The position numbers and the translations under genes were made by a program. A DNA stretch of 32,968 nucleotides from an uncultured Bacilli bacterium (GTDB lineage: Bacteria > Bacillota_I > Bacilli_A > RF39 > UBA660). The stretch is taken from positions 1 through 32,968 of the forward strand of contig CALVRE010000013.1 in the NCBI GenBank assembly GCA_944358455.1, given 5' to 3'. Of this stretch, positions 8,513 through 30,337 are shown in pieces. Numbering within the stretch: the stretch's first letter is position 1; each line of letters opens with the position of its first letter. The notes beneath the pieces are model-generated. The model was not told the origin of the DNA. It searched no databases and saw only the letters and a program-made list of their open reading frames with translations.

Positions 8513-8535
8513 AAAAAAGAACGTCGTTCTTTTTT
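8513..8535 (-). terminator. Terminator of rpsU-yqeY
   Basis: A near-perfect palindrome (AAAAGAACG paired with CGTTCTTTT) beginning at the yqeY stop codon, with a run of U on the minus strand. Confidence 0.85.
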
Positions 8536-8971
8536 AGCTTAAACGTTCACGAATGATTTTATTAATAGATCCCATATCAGCTTTTCCTTTGACAAGTGGC
8601 GTGATCGCAGCCATCACTTTTCCCATATCTTTTACACTAGTTGGATTTACTTCTTTCATTACACGATCGATAATAGCCATTACTTCTTCTTCAGAAAGTT
8701 GTTCTGGCATATACTCGTTCAATATTTCAATCTCACGATTCGTCTGATCCACTAGATCATCTCTACCGCCTTTTCCGAATTCCGCAACCGATTCTTTTCT
8801 AGTTTTAATTTGTTTAGAAACAATAGCGATCACTTCATCATCGTTAAGTTCTCTTTTCTTATTGATTTCCTCTAGTTGCATAGCACCTTTTAGCATACGT
8901 AGTACTGTCAAACGGAACTTGTCTTGACTTTTCATAGCATTTTTAATATCCGTTAAAATTCTTTCTCTCAT
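8534..8971 (-). CDS. yqeY: GatB/YqeY domain-containing protein YqeY
   Basis: A 145-residue YqeY-family protein, a stand-alone relative of the tail domain of the GatB and GlnRS tRNA-handling enzymes. Recognised by LRMLKGAMQLEEINKKREL, DDEVIAIVSKQIKTRKESV, NREIEILNEYMPEQLSEEE and the end KVMAAITPLVKGKADM. Its biochemical role is not established. AAAGGA precedes the ATG by 7 bases. It follows rpsU by 45 bases on the same strand, the classical rpsU-yqeY pairing of Bacilli, with an attenuator-like hairpin between the two. Confidence 0.95.
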   Translation of the reverse strand: MRERILTDIKNAMKSQDKFRLTVLRMLKGAMQLEEINKKRELNDDEVIAIVSKQIKTRKESVAEFGKGGRDDLVDQTNREIEILNEYMPEQLSEEEVMAIIDRVMKEVNPTSVKDMGKVMAAITPLVKGKADMGSINKIIRERLS

Positions 8972-9016: not shown

Positions 9017-9220
9017 TTAATTATAATTACGTTCTCTTCTATTTTTTCTACGACTATTTTTAATCGCTTCTTGTTTTGCTTTTCTTCTTTTAACTCCAGG
9101 TTTCATATAACCTTCTTGTCGTTCACGAGCTTCTTTTAGGAGGCCACTTTTCACATTTTTTTGTTTGAAAGTACGGAGTGCGCTTTCCACATTTCCATTT
9201 CGAACAATAACTTTTGTCAT
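9017..9220 (-). CDS. rpsU: 30S ribosomal protein S21
   Basis: A 67-residue S21, small and very basic: VIVRNGNVESALRTFKQKN, then KEARERQEGYMKPGVKRR and an Arg/Lys-rich tail. It binds near the 3' end of 16S rRNA on the small subunit and helps initiation. Standard is about 57-70 residues, so it is complete. GGGAGG with a 7-8 base spacer precedes the ATG. It has a strong promoter of its own just downstream of the bacteriocin operon. Confidence 0.97.
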   Translation of the reverse strand: MTKVIVRNGNVESALRTFKQKNVKSGLLKEARERQEGYMKPGVKRRKAKQEAIKNSRRKNRRERNYN

Positions 9221-9316: not shown

Positions 9317-9345
9317 TTGTTAAAATTCACGTATTTTTTTAACAA
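9317..9345 (-). terminator. Hairpin at the end of the bacteriocin operon
   Basis: TTGTTAAAA / TTTTAACAA, a perfect 9-bp stem with an 11-base loop, starting at the stop codon of the last peptide gene. There is no U-run after it on the minus strand, so termination may be weak or it may protect the 3' end. Confidence 0.4.
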
Positions 9346-9515
9346 AGCCCGATTTCGATTAAACGACGGACATAACTTCCGACAATTTGCCCGCTACCAA
9401 ACAGTATTTCCATCAGAATATTGACAATAGGAAGCAGAAAAGGAAGTAACAAAAGAAAGCTTCCAATCTGAATCCCTATTTTATGTTCATGATAAAATTG
9501 TTTTAAACTGGACAT
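9339..9515 (-). CDS. Small hydrophobic peptide, third product of bacteriocin operon
   Basis: A 58-residue peptide, MSSLKQFYHEHKIGIQIGSF then a Leu/Pro-rich membrane segment and the tail GSGQIVGSYVRRLIEIGLC. There is no double-glycine leader. The tail matches the second peptide in spacing: G-x3-G-S-[AY]-[IV]-R-R-x6-C. AAGGA stands 8 bases before its ATG, and the ATG lies inside the last codons of the second peptide gene in another frame (13-base overlap), suggesting translational coupling. It may be a leaderless partner peptide, or a membrane-embedded immunity protein that mimics the peptide. I cannot name a family. It is real by position, RBS and the shared tail. Confidence 0.7.
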   Translation of the reverse strand: MSSLKQFYHEHKIGIQIGSFLLLLPFLLPIVNILMEILFGSGQIVGSYVRRLIEIGLC

Positions 9516-9670
9516 ATATGATTTCCTTGCGCTCTTCTGATGGCACTTCCTAGGCTACGTCCTAAATCTAGTAAAGCATTGATCCCACGCACTAAAGAGT
9601 TGATCAAAGTACCGGAAATACTAATTCCTCCTTCGATCTGCAACATTTCTTGTTTTGATAATTCTTGCAT
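9503..9670 (-). CDS. Double-glycine-leader bacteriocin-like peptide (55 aa)
   Basis: A precursor with leader MQELSKQEMLQIEGG, a classical Gly-Gly leader (L-S-x-x-E-[LM]-x-x-I-x-G-G) cut by C39 peptidases. The mature part of 40 residues starts ISISGTLINSLVRG and ends SAIRRAQGNHICPV; it is amphipathic and positively charged with a single Cys near the end, so no internal disulfide. AGGAGG 6 bases before this ATG decides the start over an in-frame one 6 codons earlier. It lies 10 bases after the first peptide gene and overlaps the third. Expected to be secreted and to act on membranes, probably together with a partner; that is inference. Confidence 0.85.
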   Translation of the reverse strand: MQELSKQEMLQIEGGISISGTLINSLVRGINALLDLGRSLGSAIRRAQGNHICPV

Positions 9671-9680
9671 ATGATTCCTC

Positions 9681-9824
9681 CTATCCATTACACTTAAGCG
9701 GTCTTACATAACCATCGATCACACCGATTAAAAAAATTACGACACCAACAATGCAACATCCAACTCCAAAGCTGATGCCTCCACCACTTACTTTTAATAA
9801 TTCTTGTTTTGTTAACTCATTCAT
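9681..9824 (-). CDS. Double-glycine-leader bacteriocin-like peptide (47 aa)
   Basis: A precursor with leader MNELTKQELLKVSGG, closely parallel to the leader of the next gene. The mature peptide (about 32 residues) is very hydrophobic, GISFGVGCCIVGVVIFLIG followed by VIDGYVRPLKCNG, with a Cys-Cys pair and a third Cys near the end, so a disulfide is possible. GAGGGGG lies 7 bases before the ATG. Its ATG overlaps the end of the accessory gene by 8 bases. The GYVRP..C tail echoes the GSxxRR..C tails of the other two peptides. It fits a class II bacteriocin component; whether it is a two-peptide partner or a signalling peptide is not shown. Confidence 0.82.
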   Translation of the reverse strand: MNELTKQELLKVSGGGISFGVGCCIVGVVIFLIGVIDGYVRPLKCNG

Positions 9825-10272
9825 AATGAAACCCCCTCTTTATTTGTTTTGTTAACCATTGAAATCCTGTTACATTTTCCTTCTTAAACGACAAGAATAA
9901 AATATTATTTTCGATTTTTTCTTCTTCTAAAAGAGGAAATGTAATCAAGACCTCACGATATAGATTGCCGTCGTTACCAACGGTATAAGATTCGCTGATC
10001 TTTTGAATTTGGAATGTTTCTTTTCGTCCCTTAATCAATACTTCATAATGAGATAAATAAGGGATATCATCTTCCTGAACCAATATCCTAACATCATAAC
10101 GATCTCCTTCCCGAACGACAAGTCCAGTACGCTCCAAAAAGGTAGTATAAGAACGTGATAACAATAGGATTACCACTATGATCAATAATCCTAGTAATGT
10201 CATCCAAAATAATACTATCTTAGAACGATGATTGAGCAATTGAAAACCAAGTGCCTTTTTATTCCATAACAT
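9817..10272 (-). CDS. Short bacteriocin-export accessory membrane protein
   Basis: A 151-residue protein with a cytoplasmic N-terminus (MLWNKKALGFQLLNHRSKIV), one membrane span of about 25 residues (LFWMTLLGLLIIVVILLL), and an extracytoplasmic beta-rich domain. The layout (basic N-terminus, single span, barrel-like domain) resembles HlyD/LcnD/ComB accessory proteins of C39 exporters, but those are 400 or more residues with a long coiled coil and lipoyl part, absent here. It overlaps the transporter end by 14 bases and the first peptide start by 8 bases, so translation is probably coupled. The accessory role is inferred from context and topology. Confidence 0.7.
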   Translation of the reverse strand: MLWNKKALGFQLLNHRSKIVLFWMTLLGLLIIVVILLLSRSYTTFLERTGLVVREGDRYDVRILVQEDDIPYLSHYEVLIKGRKETFQIQKISESYTVGNDGNLYREVLITFPLLEEEKIENNILFLSFKKENVTGFQWLTKQIKRGFHYE

Positions 10273-12361
10273 TTTTTCTCACATCTTTTCTAATTTTTCC
10301 TTCCTTAATTTCGATCATGCGATCAAACAAATCTTGATTATCCGTGCGATGGGAAACCACAATCAGCGTTAATGTGGGATATTCTTTCATGATACTTTTT
10401 AAAATGCGTCGTTCCATCGAAAGATCCATCTGTCCCATTCCTTCGTCGATCATCAGAAAGAAATGATTACGAAGTAGACTTCGAGCAAGAAAGATACGTT
10501 CTCTTTCACCACCCGATAAATTAAAACCATTCTCTTCAATCAACATGAAATAACCCAATGGTTCATTTTTGATAATCTGATCTATTTCACACAATCGTAC
10601 CACCTTCAAAAACTCGTCTTCTGGCACTTGTCGATCAAGTGTTAAATTGTCGTAAAGAGTCCCAGTAAACAACATCTCTTGTTGAGAAATATATGCGATG
10701 TTTTGTTTTAATTCTTTACGATCATAATCATTAATATCACAATTACCAATGCTCAGTTGATTTCGCTCGATCGGATAATCGTGAAGAATCAACTTTAAAA
10801 GAGTACTCTTTCCTCCCCCACTATTTCCGACAATCATCATTTTTTCTCCTTGTTCAATTTTCAAATCGATATTCTTTAAAATCCATTTTTGATCATTATA
10901 AGTATAATTTAAATGACGAAATTCAATCGGAAACGAGAACGAAACAGGTAATGTTTTTGTCTTATCGTTTACTTCTACAAACAGTTCCAAAACTCGTTTT
11001 AGTGCAAATTTTACTTCTTTAAAATTAACATCTGCATCTATAAATGATTTGATGGGTTCGATAAAATAAGAAAATAACATTTGATAAGTCAGTAACATAC
11101 CGAGGCTTAACGTTTGATCGAGAACAGCATAAACGCCGATCAAAATCAACCATAAGAAACCTATTTGACCTAACAGTTCTTTAAAAAATAATTGAATATT
11201 ATATAAAGTTTCCCATTTTATCTGATTATTCGTCCATTTATAATACTTTGTCTCTAGCCCCTCTTCCCTATTTTTCTCTAAAGATAGGGATTGGATCGTT
11301 TCATATCCTGCGATTGACTCTACCATATGAGAATGAACTTCTCCACGTAGAGCTTGTCCTCTTTGAATATATTTTGAAAACCAAGGACGAAATAACCACC
11401 ATAAGAAAACATAACAAAGGGCAATTCCAATCGCTATACCAGTTAATTTGACATTGATCAAGCAAAGACAAATCAAACAAACCAAAGATAAAAGACAATC
11501 GACAAAAATAGTGACAAACAAACGACTAATAAAGTTTTGAACAACACCTAAATCATTCATTCTAGATACGATTTCTCCTGTCGTTCGATTGCGATAATAA
11601 TGATAAGGAAGATGTAAAATTCGTTCAAATGTACCATTCGTAAGTAAATAATCGATTCGATGAGCAATACGAATCATCAAGTCATTTCGAAAATAATTGG
11701 TCATTTCCTTTAAAAATGCGATAACAAGAAAAAGGATAAATAAACCATAATAATAATTTTTGTCAGAATAATGATTCATGCCATCGATCATCGACTGAAA
11801 ATAAAAAGATAGTACAATGGCAAATATGGTTACAAATATCGATAGAAAGAATACTTGTAGTAATTCCCATTTAAAGTGACTAACGAGTGAACGAAATAAT
11901 TCGATAAACGAAGTAGAATTGCTATAACGAGGTAATGGTTTATAAGGGTATAGCTCAATCACAACCTGATCCCAAATAGTTAAAAACTCACGATAACTCA
12001 TTCGTTTCAACTTTTTTTCATTAGGATCTGCAACTAATAGTCGCTTCTTTGAGGGCTCTATTCGATAAATGACAATATAATGTTGATATTTTTCTTCTAA
12101 TGTGATATGAGCAATTAAGGGATAATGAACATTACTTTCCAAGTCTTCCAACGTACATTTGATGCCTCTCGCATGAAAGCCAATTTCTTTTGCACATGTT
12201 ACTAAATGATATGCTGTTACACCTCTTCGATCAGTCTTCGATAATTCTCGTAATACTTCTAATGGAACTTGCCCTTTATAATAAAGAATGATCATTGCAA
12301 GTGATGCGACACCACAATCCTTTTCTCCTTCTTGTTCCACAAATGGATACCTTCTTAACAT
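10259..12361 (-). CDS. Peptidase-containing ABC transporter (bacteriocin exporter)
   Basis: A 700-residue C39-type exporter. The N-terminal peptidase has Gln10, Cys16 (EGEKDCGVASLAMI), His94 (KYQHYIVIYR) and Asp112 (VADPN), the full catalytic set for cutting Gly-Gly leaders. A six-span ABC membrane domain follows (about 160-450), then the ATPase with Walker A GNSGGGKSTLLKLI, signature LSGGERERIFLARSLL, Walker B FFLMIDE and the switch His in VVSHR. The gene heads the operon whose last genes encode two peptides with such leaders, so substrate and transporter match. GGTGA/AAGG stands before the ATG at 12361. No promoter with both boxes was obvious in the 75 bases upstream. Confidence 0.93.
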   Translation of the reverse strand: MLRRYPFVEQEGEKDCGVASLAMIILYYKGQVPLEVLRELSKTDRRGVTAYHLVTCAKEIGFHARGIKCTLEDLESNVHYPLIAHITLEEKYQHYIVIYRIEPSKKRLLVADPNEKKLKRMSYREFLTIWDQVVIELYPYKPLPRYSNSTSFIELFRSLVSHFKWELLQVFFLSIFVTIFAIVLSFYFQSMIDGMNHYSDKNYYYGLFILFLVIAFLKEMTNYFRNDLMIRIAHRIDYLLTNGTFERILHLPYHYYRNRTTGEIVSRMNDLGVVQNFISRLFVTIFVDCLLSLVCLICLCLINVKLTGIAIGIALCYVFLWWLFRPWFSKYIQRGQALRGEVHSHMVESIAGYETIQSLSLEKNREEGLETKYYKWTNNQIKWETLYNIQLFFKELLGQIGFLWLILIGVYAVLDQTLSLGMLLTYQMLFSYFIEPIKSFIDADVNFKEVKFALKRVLELFVEVNDKTKTLPVSFSFPIEFRHLNYTYNDQKWILKNIDLKIEQGEKMMIVGNSGGGKSTLLKLILHDYPIERNQLSIGNCDINDYDRKELKQNIAYISQQEMLFTGTLYDNLTLDRQVPEDEFLKVVRLCEIDQIIKNEPLGYFMLIEENGFNLSGGERERIFLARSLLRNHFFLMIDEGMGQMDLSMERRILKSIMKEYPTLTLIVVSHRTDNQDLFDRMIEIKEGKIRKDVRKNVME

Positions 12362-26146: not shown

Positions 26147-26175
26147 TTGAATAGAACGTATCGTTTTTTTATTCT
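26147..26175 (+). promoter_or_regulatory. Promoter of the sortase gene
   Basis: TTGAAT (26147-26152), 17-base spacer, TATTCT (26170-26175). The -10 is weak. Its -35 is 5 bases from that of the divergent suf operon. Confidence 0.45.
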
Positions 26176-26200
26176 CTTCCATACTAAAAATGGTGATGAT

Positions 26201-26944
26201 ATGAAAAATGGAAAACGATTTCTTTTGATAGTAGGTATGACATTGCTTTTATTTGGAAGTTTGCAAATATTCCATTGGTTCCAAGAAAGTAATGATTCAA
26301 AAAAACTACAAGACAAACTGAAAACAGATGCGATAATCGATCATGTAGAACAAACGGAATCATCTCCTTTTTTATCCATCGACTTTTCAACTCTTACTTC
26401 CCAAAACGAAGATGTCGTTGGATGGATTAAAATTCAAAACACCAATGTCGATTATCCAATCGTTCAAAGCTTTGATAATCAATTTTATCTCAATCATAAT
26501 TTTCATAAAGAAACAAGTAAGGCCGGATGGATTTTTGCAGATTATCGTAACCCTTCTTCTCTATCCGATCAAAACATAATTCTCTATGGTCATGGTAGAT
26601 TAGATAATAGTATGTTTGGAAGTCTTCGTCTTTTGTTAGAGGAAGATTGGTTTATTCAAAATCAATCTCATCAAATTCAATTATCAACTCTAAAAGAGAA
26701 CCGCCTTTATGAAATCGTTTCTATTTATACAATCAAACCAGAAACCTATTATCTTACTACTTTTTTTGAAAACGACCAGAAATGGCAACAATATCTAGAG
26801 ACCATTCAAAGAAGAAGTATTTACTCATTCGACACCACGCTCTATCCAGACGATCAAATCCTAACCCTTTCCACTTGTCAGGACGACAATCAAAATCGTT
26901 TAGTCGTACATGCGAAACTCATCAAAAAAGAAATTCGTAAATGA
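26201..26944 (+). CDS. srtB: Class B-like sortase
   Basis: A 247-residue membrane-anchored transpeptidase. One N-terminal span (FLLIVGMTLLLFGSLQIF, about 7-25) and an outside catalytic domain with GWIKIQNTNVDYPIVQ, His131 in ILYGHGRLDNSMFG, Cys226 in LTLSTCQDD and Arg233 in NRLVVHAKL, the sortase triad. Length and the YGH...D-x-S-M-F box fit class B. The frame extends 18 codons further, but GGTGA and the basic N-terminus favour the ATG at 26201. It converges on a gene encoding a protein with an NPSTG anchor, a probable substrate. No pilin genes are near. Confidence 0.93.
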   Translation: MKNGKRFLLIVGMTLLLFGSLQIFHWFQESNDSKKLQDKLKTDAIIDHVEQTESSPFLSIDFSTLTSQNEDVVGWIKIQNTNVDYPIVQSFDNQFYLNHNFHKETSKAGWIFADYRNPSSLSDQNIILYGHGRLDNSMFGSLRLLLEEDWFIQNQSHQIQLSTLKENRLYEIVSIYTIKPETYYLTTFFENDQKWQQYLETIQRRSIYSFDTTLYPDDQILTLSTCQDDNQNRLVVHAKLIKKEIRK

Positions 26945-26950
26945 ATTTCT
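26929..26950. terminator. Bidirectional terminator between sortase and surface protein
   Basis: AGAAATTC / GAATTTCT, an 8-bp perfect stem spanning the end of both convergent genes. On the minus strand it is followed by TTTTTT (strong); on the plus strand by TAATTTT (moderate). Confidence 0.75.
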
Positions 26951-27684
26951 TAATTTTCATAATTCCATTTTTTAGTAAGTAGTAAGATCGTACTACCGAT
27001 TAATGTAATTACTCCATAAAGTGGCAATAAATCCCCTGTACTTGGATTTTCAGGTGGGTTTATCAAACTGTCAAGATCCGCTAATGTAATCTCTTTATCT
27101 GCTTCCAACGTCATTTGTTTACCATTGATCTCTAGAATTGATCCCGTGGAATCTGTTGGTACCCACAATGTTGGACGATCTTCTGTCTCTGTTGTATTGA
27201 CAATTTTACCATCAGATGCAAGTACAAGATGCGCGACACTCTCAACGGCTGCACCTTGACCAAGTTCGATACCACCAAAGCCATTGCCAGAAACATCTAA
27301 TGTGCCTTCAACAGTAACTTTACCACCATTGATCAAAAGTCCACCATTTCCACCGGTAAGACGAATATTTTTTAGCGTTACTTCTGTTTTATAAACTTGT
27401 AAGACGTAAATTCCGCCCCATACGGTATAATCGGAACTTCCTGCTGAACCAAAGGTTCCAACATACTTCATCGTATAGCCATTACCATTGATTTTAAGCG
27501 GACGCAAAATATTGATCTTTTCCGTTGTCTCAATATCGTTTGCCAAAACAATTTCGCTAATATCAGAATTACCAATGGCTTCTTTTAATTCCGTTTGATT
27601 GTGAACCGTTATAGAAGCAGCATCGACATCGATAAAAGGAATGATCGCAAACGCTAAGATACATACTTGTAAAAACTTTTTCAT
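26950..27684 (-). CDS. Cell-wall-anchored beta-helix surface protein (NPSTG)
   Basis: A 244-residue secreted protein. It has a signal peptide (basic start, FLQVCILAFAIIPFI, cut near VDAA), a repetitive beta-rich body (VTLKNIRLTGGNGG, LLINGGKVTVEGTLDVSG and similar) typical of right-handed beta-helix proteins related to pectate-lyase folds, and a sorting tail: ENPSTGD, a hydrophobic span (about 17 residues) and KKWNYEN. No catalytic residues of a polysaccharide lyase are recognisable, so the ligand is unknown. AAGGAAGG 4-5 bases before the ATG. Convergent with the sortase gene, which probably anchors it to the wall. Confidence 0.82.
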   Translation of the reverse strand: MKKFLQVCILAFAIIPFIDVDAASITVHNQTELKEAIGNSDISEIVLANDIETTEKINILRPLKINGNGYTMKYVGTFGSAGSSDYTVWGGIYVLQVYKTEVTLKNIRLTGGNGGLLINGGKVTVEGTLDVSGNGFGGIELGQGAAVESVAHLVLASDGKIVNTTETEDRPTLWVPTDSTGSILEINGKQMTLEADKEITLADLDSLINPPENPSTGDLLPLYGVITLIGSTILLLTKKWNYEN

Positions 27685-27898: not shown

Positions 27899-29119
27899 TT
27901 ATTCAAAAATACCTTTTAGCATATTAGAAACAGCTGCATAAATAGCAGATATACGATACCAAGTTGCAAAATTGACAATACCTGTAATCGGTAAATTAAA
28001 TACCGATTGAAATTTTTTGACCGCCGCAGTAGTATCAGAGCCAAATACACCATTGGCATTTGAAATGAGTGGGATTGCTGGATAACTACCACGAATTTTA
28101 TTCAAAGCATTTTGCAGTAATTGTACCTCTTCTCCACATGCACCTTCACTCAAATTATAACCTGGAAATGATGTTGGAAGATCAGAAACAACTTCCGCTA
28201 CCGCTAATTGAATCGTATTACCATAATAATATCTGACAATCTGTAATGAGTTATAACCTTGATCACCTAATGTTTTCGATCCCCATTGACTGAGCCATCC
28301 ATCTCTTACTACTTTGATACCATCACTATACTGAGCTAAAAAGGGAAACGAACGATCAGGAAATTTTAAGTATTCGTCAAAATATTCATCTACCACTTCT
28401 GAAATGGTATCAAAAATCGTACGATTATGCGTATATTTTTGATCATATGCTGTCGAAGAAGTAATCGTAAAAGAATAACCTTTCGAAAAATACCATTCTG
28501 TATAAACACGATTTAATGTGAATGATACAATCGCATGAACATTGGCCTTCAACGTCTCTCTAGGCCACGTAGGATATATTTCTGAAGATGCAACATTCTT
28601 AATATAATCTGGGAATGTCACATAATAATTTGGTGCATTTGTATCACTTGGTATTCCATCATGAACAATAATATACCCCGGAACAATCACTCTTGGAAGC
28701 ACTCTTCCACTTCCAAGAAAGGCATTGGGGTTCTGTACTATTTTAGATGGGTCATTCGCCCAAATAGCAGGAGGTGTCACCACCGTCACATTCTTCCCAG
28801 ACCCACCCGGAGTGGTACTAAGAAAGACATCTTGAATCGATTCGATTCCAGCATATACTTGAGCTCCGATTACCGTTCCAACTCCTAATCCTTCTTTATA
28901 AACGGTAATATCATACGTACTAAATGGTTGAACTGTATTTTGTGGTTCCAATGTATATTCTAAATCAGGAGCCTTTAATTCTACAACACTTGTTCTACCT
29001 GATTCATCGGTCATTAAATTGAGATTGGTATCTTCTCCATTAATCGTCACCATTGCTCCTTCTAATGGTAACGCGACATTATCGACAAATACTTGAACTA
29101 CTAAACGTCCGCTTGCCAT
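27899..29119 (-). CDS. SleC-like spore cortex-lytic protein (SpoIID and PG-binding domains)
   Basis: A 406-residue protein with the layout of clostridial SleC: an N-terminal beta domain (GRLVVQVFVDNVALPLEGA), a conserved central part (PGYIIVHDGIPSDTNAPNYY), a SpoIID-type lytic transglycosylase domain and a C-terminal peptidoglycan-binding repeat. The expected catalytic glutamate is Glu180 in VASSEIYPTWP; SFTLNRVYTEWYFSKGYSF and WGSKTLGDQGYNSLQIVRYY match the SleC family strongly. There is no obvious signal peptide, as in SleC. In Clostridium it degrades spore cortex during germination. No csp protease genes are seen. Divergent from the LysM gene. Confidence 0.85.
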   Translation of the reverse strand: MASGRLVVQVFVDNVALPLEGAMVTINGEDTNLNLMTDESGRTSVVELKAPDLEYTLEPQNTVQPFSTYDITVYKEGLGVGTVIGAQVYAGIESIQDVFLSTTPGGSGKNVTVVTPPAIWANDPSKIVQNPNAFLGSGRVLPRVIVPGYIIVHDGIPSDTNAPNYYVTFPDYIKNVASSEIYPTWPRETLKANVHAIVSFTLNRVYTEWYFSKGYSFTITSSTAYDQKYTHNRTIFDTISEVVDEYFDEYLKFPDRSFPFLAQYSDGIKVVRDGWLSQWGSKTLGDQGYNSLQIVRYYYGNTIQLAVAEVVSDLPTSFPGYNLSEGACGEEVQLLQNALNKIRGSYPAIPLISNANGVFGSDTTAAVKKFQSVFNLPITGIVNFATWYRISAIYAAVSNMLKGIFE

Positions 29120-29221
29120 ATTCTCAAATCCTTTCTCTCATCACCACTAATATATGCGAATACAAAACTAAAATGCATTTTTTCTAGTTAGAATAATATA
29201 ATAGGTAATGGAGGTTATGTT
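29120..29221. promoter_or_regulatory. Divergent promoter region of sleC-like and LysM genes
   Basis: Toward the LysM gene a perfect TATAAT (29197-29202) lies 20 bases before its start, but no good -35 is seen. Toward the SleC-like gene the minus strand carries CATATATTA (29148-29156), which fits CATAnnnTA of mother-cell sigma factors (SigE/SigK type); the -35 side does not fit clearly. Weak evidence for sporulation control. Confidence 0.3.
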
Positions 29222-30337
29222 ATGAATACGAATGAGTATAACGTATTAAATCCTATCATAAGCGAAGGAGATACTGGCGATGACGTCATTATTTTACAAA
29301 GTAAATTAAAAGATCTAGCTTATTTTTTCGCTAGTATCACCGGAAGTTTTGACGAGTATACCGAACGTGCTGTCATGGATTTTCAAAAGCAAAATGGATT
29401 GATTGCTAGTGGTGTCGTAAACGAAGAAACATGGCAAAAATTATATCAATTGACAGATGAACTATCGCCCGCCACATACGATACACGACCTGTTTTAAGA
29501 CTAGGAAGCACGGGGCCTTATGTAACCGAACTACAATCCACGTTAAAAACCTTATTATATTATACTGGAGAAATCGATGGTAATTTTGGAACTAGTACCG
29601 AAAATGCCGTAAAAAGATTTCAAACCAATAATAATTTAACGCCAGATGGTATCGTTGGGCGTAACACATGGAGTGCATTATCCAGTCTATATTCCCCACT
29701 CGCCATTTGTGAAGGAAATGAGGGTGACCAATATATCATTTATACCGTCGTTGCCGGAGACTCTCTATGGTCAATTGCAAACAGATTTGGTACTACAATC
29801 GATGCGATTAAATCTCTCAATAATTTAACCAGTGATGTCCTTCAAATCGGACAACAACTAAAAATTCCAACTTCTGAGCAAAATGCTACTATTTATACGG
29901 TTGTAGCTGGAGATTCTCTATGGACAATTGCAAAAAGATTTGGTACCACAGTCGATGCGATTAAATCTCTCAATAATTTAACCAGTGATATCCTTCAAAT
30001 CGGACAACGACTAAAAATCCCAACTTCTGAGCAAACTACTACTTATACGGTTGTAGCTGGAGATTCTCTATGGTCGATCGCAAACAGATTTGGTACCACA
30101 GTCGATGCGATTAAATCTCTCAATAATTTAACCAGTGATATCCTTCAAATTGGACAACAACTAAAAATTCCAACTTCTGAACAAAATGCTACTATTTATA
30201 CGGTTGTAGCTGGAGATTCTCTATGGACAATTGCAAAAAGATTTGGTACCACAGTCGATGCAATTAAATCTCTCAACAATTTGACCAGTAATTTTTTGAA
30301 TGTTGGGCAACAACTAAGAATTCCAACTTCCAACTAA
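29222..30337 (+). CDS. Peptidoglycan-binding protein with two PG_binding_1 and four LysM domains
   Basis: A 371-residue protein built only from wall-binding modules: two PG_binding_1 domains (about 10-72 with GDTGDDVIILQSKLKDL, and about 82-145 with LGSTGPYVTELQSTLKTLL) and four LysM repeats (about 168-369) each starting YTVVAGDSLW and ending IGQ-[QR]-LKIPTS. There is no catalytic domain and no signal peptide. GGAGG stands 7 bases before the ATG. Similar signal-less LysM proteins are found on spore surfaces; a non-classical location is inferred. Its 3' end is copied at 31324-31382, and the last repeat differs from the others (NFLNVGQQLRIPTSN). Confidence 0.9.
   Translation: MNTNEYNVLNPIISEGDTGDDVIILQSKLKDLAYFFASITGSFDEYTERAVMDFQKQNGLIASGVVNEETWQKLYQLTDELSPATYDTRPVLRLGSTGPYVTELQSTLKTLLYYTGEIDGNFGTSTENAVKRFQTNNNLTPDGIVGRNTWSALSSLYSPLAICEGNEGDQYIIYTVVAGDSLWSIANRFGTTIDAIKSLNNLTSDVLQIGQQLKIPTSEQNATIYTVVAGDSLWTIAKRFGTTVDAIKSLNNLTSDILQIGQRLKIPTSEQTTTYTVVAGDSLWSIANRFGTTVDAIKSLNNLTSDILQIGQQLKIPTSEQNATIYTVVAGDSLWTIAKRFGTTVDAIKSLNNLTSNFLNVGQQLRIPTSN
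29740..30330 (+). repeat. Four tandem LysM-coding repeats
   Basis: Four direct repeats of about 150-156 bases. The DNA of repeats 2-4 is almost identical, including synonymous positions, pointing to recent duplication or gene conversion; the first repeat differs more. Confidence 0.9.
30254..30312. repeat. 59-bp direct repeat, copy in the LysM gene
   Basis: Lies in the last LysM repeat. 58 of 59 bases match 31324-31382. The sequences diverge abruptly on both sides. Confidence 0.9.

Follow-up and report, generated by a model that had tools for sequence, protein, structure and literature searches.

Three small peptide genes lie behind a C39 exporter in the genome of an uncultured Bacilli bacterium, and they raise the question of what kind of system they form. 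The original prediction held that they encode a three-peptide bacteriocin whose members share one C-terminal tail. We analysed the locus in its whole surrounding stretch of 32,968 nucleotides (the window), which comes from a genome of 1.17 Mb (43 contigs, 92% complete). All three predicted open reading frames are present on the minus strand. They belong to a five-gene cassette in the order exporter, accessory protein, P1, P2, and P3, with rpsU and then a yqeY-like gene downstream of P3 on the same strand. The predicted exporter is there, while a gene for a 151-amino acid accessory protein, which had gone unmentioned, separates it from the peptides. Neighboring cassette genes almost touch or overlap (P3 and P2 by 13 nt, P1 and the accessory gene by 8 nt, with a gap of 10 nt between P1 and P2), and Shine-Dalgarno-like sequences precede P1, P2, and P3. 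The features, with the basis of each in brackets, are as follows:

10259..12361, minus strand: C39 peptidase/ABC exporter, 700 aa (Pfam domains)
9817..10272, minus strand: accessory protein, 151 aa (AlphaFold model and structure comparison)
9681..9824, minus strand: P1, GG-leader peptide, 47 aa (TIGR03949 match; hydropathy)
9780..9824, minus strand: P1 leader, MNELTKQELLKVSGG (sequence)
9690..9725, minus strand: conserved P1 tail, GVIDGYVRPLKC, with invariant GxxxG, P, and C (alignment of P1 members)
9677..9682, minus strand: AGGAGG ribosome-binding site of P2 (sequence)
9503..9670, minus strand: P2, GG-leader peptide, 55 aa, predicted amphipathic cationic helix (open reading frame, AlphaFold)
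9626..9670, minus strand: P2 leader, MQELSKQEMLQIEGG (sequence; P2 alignment)
9512..9562, minus strand: P2 tail signature, G-x3-G-[ST]-x2-RR-x6-C (P2 alignment, locus counts)
9339..9515, minus strand: P3, leaderless peptide of 58 aa with a transmembrane (TM) segment and a P2-like tail (HHalign, shuffle control)
9342..9392, minus strand: P2-like tail of P3, GQIVGSYVRRLIEIGLC (P3 alignment)
9017..9220, minus strand: rpsU (bS21), conserved downstream neighbor (position across loci)
8534..8971, minus strand: yqeY-like gene (GatB/YqeY family), next conserved neighbor, which also follows rpsU in many related loci

The P2 open reading frame spans 9503-9688; because AGGAGG stands 6 nt before the ATG at 9670, we place the start there, and the protein begins with MQELSK. 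Elsewhere in the window, a sortase-like protein with a TLSTC motif lies tail to tail with a secreted protein that ends in a TGD-TM-charged tail (26147-27684), and the two are likely to be a sortase and its own substrate. Positions 27899-30337 encode peptidoglycan-binding/LysM proteins of the spore cortex or wall type, one of which carries four near-identical LysM repeats.

For comparison, one related locus per genus was fetched and read (60 loci), and together with named contigs these gave the 92 distinct loci that underlie the counts of cassette anatomy. In 49 of these 92 loci, rpsU shares the strand of P2 and lies downstream of it at a distance of no more than 900 bp. One related locus (L041, G016:C40) has a gene for a SAM-dependent methyltransferase-like protein of 227 aa in an interval of ~700 bp between P1 and P2.

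The exporter carries the Pfam domains Peptidase_C39 (1e-33), ABC_membrane (2.9e-38), and ABC_tran (1.9e-23), and as the single PF03412 match in the window's genome (G000), it is the only C39 protein found there. The catalytic cysteine motif was present in 82 of 89 exporter homologues, and two of the seven misses are truncated open reading frames. The AlphaFold model of the accessory protein (pLDDT 87) shows nothing beyond a long N-terminal helix and a single barrel. This fold, a single TM helix plus a beta-barrel domain, is like that of membrane-fusion adaptors of the HlyD/MacA type. Comparison by VIA-align, with Z values that are moderate throughout, ranked BesA (8.9), MacA (8.3-8.5), Spr0693 (8.4), and CusB (8.1) best, and nearly all of the top 20 rows were membrane-fusion adaptors; 131 residues aligned with chain 7sgr_C of the HlyB/D complex (Z 6.1). 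Foldseek alone found nothing for the model at E <= 0.001. The coiled-coil hairpin and the lipoyl domain are absent from the model, and the accessory gene was recognized in 60 of the 92 loci. A Pfam hit below cutoff (0.02) had offered a tRNA endonuclease as another identity for this protein, which its fold rules out.

P2 was found in 92 of 92 loci and P1 in 90, whereas 36 lack P3; thus, the constant unit of the cassette is P1 plus P2. As had been predicted, both peptides have a Gly-Gly leader. The two leaders resemble each other within genomes (0.538 versus 0.451 +/- 0.008 for shuffled pairs), as expected for substrates of one exporter. In alignments of 24-25 members of each peptide, every member coming from a different genome, the GG of the leader and a GxxxG motif are invariant in both P1 and P2; the invariant positions include G34, G38, P42, and C45 of P1 and G37, G41, R46, and C53 of P2. 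Across the loci, the pattern G-x2-[DESG]-G-x2-[RHN]-P-x2-C was found in 88 of 90 P1 peptides and G-x3-G-[STN]-x3-R-x6-C in P2 of 91 of 92, and a single cysteine is present in the mature part of 82 of 90 P1 and 87 of 92 P2 peptides. Mature parts are as conserved as leaders and show no hypervariability. Judging from the coding sequences, the cassette genes are under purifying selection: each of the five has a dN well under its dS in close pairs whose dS is short of saturation. P1 and P2 evolve no faster than the exporter in these pairs, which were chosen beforehand by P2 identity, so that the average for P2 is biased upward. Mature P1 is very hydrophobic, with a TM-like helix (mean best 19-residue hydropathy 2.31), while P2 is amphipathic and cationic (mean muH 0.70), with AlphaFold helices at residues 6-14 and 20-48 (pLDDT 72.6). 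Since the leaders co-vary and the two genes lie behind a C39 exporter of their own, itself accompanied by a miniature membrane-fusion accessory, it is almost certain that P1 and P2 undergo cleavage behind Gly-Gly and leave the cell together.

Comparison with curated families places P1 close to known bacteriocins. P1 scores 32.8 bits against TIGR03949 (lactobin A/cerein 7B), above the curated cutoff of 21.5; the match covers residues 2-35 of 47, that is, the leader and the TM segment, and leaves the P1 tail [DE]G-x2-RP-x2-C outside. P2 stays below this cutoff (13.6 bits), and both peptides are below the gathering cutoff of 27.1 for Pfam Bacteriocin_IIc PF10439 (16.9 and 13.8 bits), which count as points against a class IIb assignment. 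A search of solved structures gave merely leader-level, nonsignificant similarity to CtA and carnobacteriocin B2, and a PHROGs search returned no match.

The tail strings on which the original prediction rested are literally correct. P1 has GYVRPLKC, and GRSLGSAIRRAQGNHIC of P2 and GQIVGSYVRRLIEIGLC of P3 both match G-x3-G-S-[AY]-[IV]-RR-x6-C with the same spacing. For P2 and P3, the proposed kinship was borne out: profile-profile alignment by HHalign gave E = 3.3e-9 over the mature part of P2, and the core-only score with the leader removed was 30.5, whereas 100 column shuffles reached 7.9 at most. By this comparison, P3 is a true homologue of mature P2. In contrast, the core of P1 aligned with P2 or P3 no better than column shuffles, the profile similarity of P1 and P2 is confined to the leader, and P1 has an invariant tail of its own (GxxxG followed by x3-P-x2-C). 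Because the P1 tail cannot be aligned with those of P2 and P3, a tail common to all three peptides is unsupported; as judged by alignment, there are two signatures, one in P1 and one common to P2 and P3.

P3 shares the invariant GxxxG with P1 and P2; its alignment shows invariant G42 and G46 and an arginine at position 50 in at least 90% of members. The core G-x3-G-[ST]-x2-R is kept in 52 of 56 P3 peptides and a cysteine at P2-like spacing in only 15 of 56, the cysteine content of P3 being variable across loci. The N-terminal half is TM-like (best 19-residue hydropathy mean 2.64), and a GG leader is absent from P3 of the window and from the other members read. On the exporter tree, the presence of P3 is clustered (18 changes versus 28 in shuffles) yet spread over more than one clade, and therefore P3 was gained or lost repeatedly. 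In one diverged cassette (G045, L170:5878-6451), there are three GG-leader peptides, and the third, at the P3 position, combines a leader with a G-x3-G-x3-R core without cysteine. This speaks for P3 having arisen through duplication of P2. P3 has the size and operon place of a class IIb immunity protein and was found in 56 of the 92 loci. It is most likely a membrane-anchored, P2-like partner and a candidate immunity protein, a role that its absence from 36 of 92 loci, in which no other immunity gene was identified, weakens as an obligatory one. A multi-component class II locus had been foreseen, and GG-leader class II peptides with a C39 exporter are indeed what we found; a three-peptide bacteriocin is unlikely, given a P3 that lacks a GG leader and can be dispensed with. 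The check that had been set beforehand, whether related loci keep the tail motif and the third peptide, divides along the same line, with the motif conserved over ~90 loci and P3 lacking from more than a third of them.

How widely is the cassette distributed? The window's family is represented by 291 genomes from 150 genera, and P2 was detected in 265 of these genomes and 144 of these genera. In a sample of the order, a profile search detected it in 316 of 337 genomes, and in 265 of 279 of those at least 90% complete. For comparison, ribosomal protein S2 turned up in 187 of 193 genomes (missing from 6), and P2 in 183 of the same 193 (missing from 10). Given that assemblies are incomplete, these counts make the cassette about as universal as a housekeeping or ribosomal protein gene. 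Fifteen of 20 genomes without P2 also had no C39 match; therefore, the cassette is mostly lost as a block. The P2 core alone was detected in 7 of 7 family genomes and in none of 238 other genomes across the phylum. Matches to the P1 and P2 profiles outside the family, at class level, cover the leader region only and therefore were not counted as relatives, and plasmids, phages, and viral contigs gave no cassette match. Bacteriocins are normally patchy, with fast turnover. In one survey, only 14% of 175 lactobacilli had a bacteriocin operon (PMC5471241). Thus, unlike an occasional accessory bacteriocin, the cassette is a core, clade-restricted locus. Among small-genome families of the same class (f4 and f15), GG-type leader proteins of several species match the P1/P2 leader profile, for example a 139-aa frame at G443:C1:578341-578430; these are possibly substrates of other C39 exporters.

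The named carriers of the cassette are uncultured Bacilli from gut and other sources, including Candidatus Faecisoma merdavium, which its authors assigned to the GTDB order RF39 (PMC8035907). RF39 has been reported to be without fatty acid synthesis (PMC6784871), and of 19 family genomes tested for fabF, 18 lack it, among them the window's genome. Hence, the cassette clade is most likely the uncultured, fatty acid-auxotrophic order RF39. The sole fabF-bearing genome of the 19 (G007) carries a P1/P2 pair that is among the most diverged, a hint, from one lineage only, that the cassette is linked to fatty acid scavenging. We found no link in the literature between RF39 and a conserved bacteriocin.

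In one genome (G126), the P1 gene is interrupted. A prophage-like element of ~35 kb with a large serine recombinase (Pfam Recombinase 1.5e-24) sits inside it at the DGY codons (G126:C3, about 19.3-54.2 kb; L164, L171, and L086); the 5' part of P1 stays beside the exporter, and P2 is preceded by the remaining 3' piece, GYIRPLACR. G241:C72 (L166) shows a P1 split at this very position, next to a recombinase of 77% identity, and three congeners have an intact P1. The recombinase of the G126 element was not found in viral contigs. The conserved P1 tail apparently acts as an attachment site, in keeping with the status of P1 as a core gene, and the insertion could possibly be a reversible silencing of the cassette.

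What, then, does the cassette do? In gene content, the five-gene cassette corresponds to the canonical class IIb cluster, which comprises two precursors, an immunity protein, a transporter, and an accessory protein (PMC6957408). As in lactococcin G, carnobacteriocin XY, plantaricin JK, and brochocin C, two GG-leader peptides are adjacent, and the cassette likewise has a dedicated C39 exporter, a membrane-fusion-type accessory, a small membrane protein in the immunity position (here P3), and GxxxG, the helix-pairing motif of two-peptide bacteriocins (PMC5471241). It differs in being order-wide rather than patchy, in being known from sequence alone, and in having a third gene homologous to the P2 core, one invariant cysteine in each of mature P1 and P2, and an accessory shrunk to ~150 aa. 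To our knowledge, single conserved cysteines are no class IIb hallmark. The accessory shares the single N-terminal TM helix and the beta-barrel fold with HlyD/MacA/LcnD-type proteins; unlike them, it has no coiled-coil hairpin, has about one-third of the usual length, and goes unrecognized in about one-third of loci. Class IIb immunity proteins can be membrane proteins of 42-55 aa (PMC6957408), and P3 is alike in size, hydrophobicity, and operon place to CbnZ (42 aa), BrcI (53), EnkIaz (52), and AbpIM (55). In contrast to these, it resembles the mature peptide of its own operon, and our literature search found no description of a short immunity protein that does so.

Taken together, the cassette probably works like, and derives from, a class IIb system. 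Our main reading, to which we give a probability of roughly one-half, is that of an ancestral two-peptide system of class IIb-like type, passed on vertically and fixed in one order, with P3 as its immunity protein. In this mechanism, hydrophobic, TM-like mature P1 and amphipathic, cationic mature P2 would pair in a neighboring cell's membrane through the invariant GxxxG of each and permeabilize that membrane, and their single invariant cysteines may link the two covalently. P3 would stay in the producer membrane and pair with incoming P1, or block the partner of P2; we propose the pairing with P1 because the C-terminal half of P3 is a copy of mature P2. Such a dead-end, nonlethal complex would confer self-immunity. 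The lipids and nutrients freed from neighbors would likely benefit fatty acid auxotrophs, and this is the weakest step. What weakens the immunity step most is the lack of P3 in more than a third of loci. We do not file the locus as a proven bacteriocin because immunity by P3 remains a candidate function and the activity is putative.

The strongest rival is a core, nonantagonistic role, which the distribution invites and with which the gene make-up is compatible. P1 and P2 would then act on the producer's own envelope or in a conserved form of scavenging, for example by forming a complex in the membrane or at the surface that takes up lipids, with P3 as a membrane-anchored modulator. Universal single-copy conservation is more typical of physiology, and here it comes close to that of S2 within a single clade, together with a fixed position on the rpsU side in about half of the loci, mature parts conserved like leaders, and the general lack of fabF alongside the strongly diverged peptides of its one bearer. 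However, the genes are exactly those of a class IIb cluster, GG-leader export of paired GxxxG peptides is typical of bacteriocins, and the fabF contrast comes from a single lineage and may reflect phylogenetic position only; we therefore regard this role as possible but would not bet on it. A three-component bacteriocin, in which P3 itself is exported and active, would account for the core common to P2 and P3 and for the leader of the third peptide in G045. It is unlikely in view of the leaderless, TM-like N-terminal half of P3 and of the many loci without it.

C39 exporters process pheromones too, and a conserved mature sequence would suit a conserved receptor; P1 and/or P2 might thus be signals sensed by the producer population. 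Neither a histidine kinase nor a response regulator was seen in the 60 related loci read, and a co-conserved pair of hydrophobic GxxxG peptides is unlike known pheromones, so that we consider signaling quite improbable. The lone response regulator near P1 (L164) lies on the prophage side of the split gene; as a pheromone system it was ruled out, the P1 fragment being a prophage junction. Operons of this type are common among Bacillota, and this genome could have acquired an ordinary, horizontally spread bacteriocin locus. Near-universal presence in the order, the place beside rpsU in half of the loci, the lack of plasmid, phage, or viral matches, and the absence of the P2 core from all 238 genomes of the same phylum outside the family make this the least credible reading, with very little chance of being right. 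The distribution contradicts a recent gain, and a shared misbinned contaminant is implausible across 150 genera.

Returning to the class IIb-like two-peptide system, we tentatively offer, as a doubtful extension, a joint reading. A bacteriocin-derived P1/P2 pair, held together by GxxxG and possibly a disulfide, would now be a core organ of the order that strips lipids and nutrients from neighbors, while P3, derived from P2, protects the producer as a decoy. The mechanism of the small immunity proteins of two-peptide bacteriocins has been called a mystery (PMC6957408), and the homology of P2 and P3 makes it testable here as a possible decoy-subunit mechanism. Animal guts commonly harbor RF39-type Bacilli, which are uncultured and do not synthesize fatty acids. 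The cassette is one of their few order-specific traits and, as such, a direct handle on their life with neighbors and perhaps on their resistance to culture.
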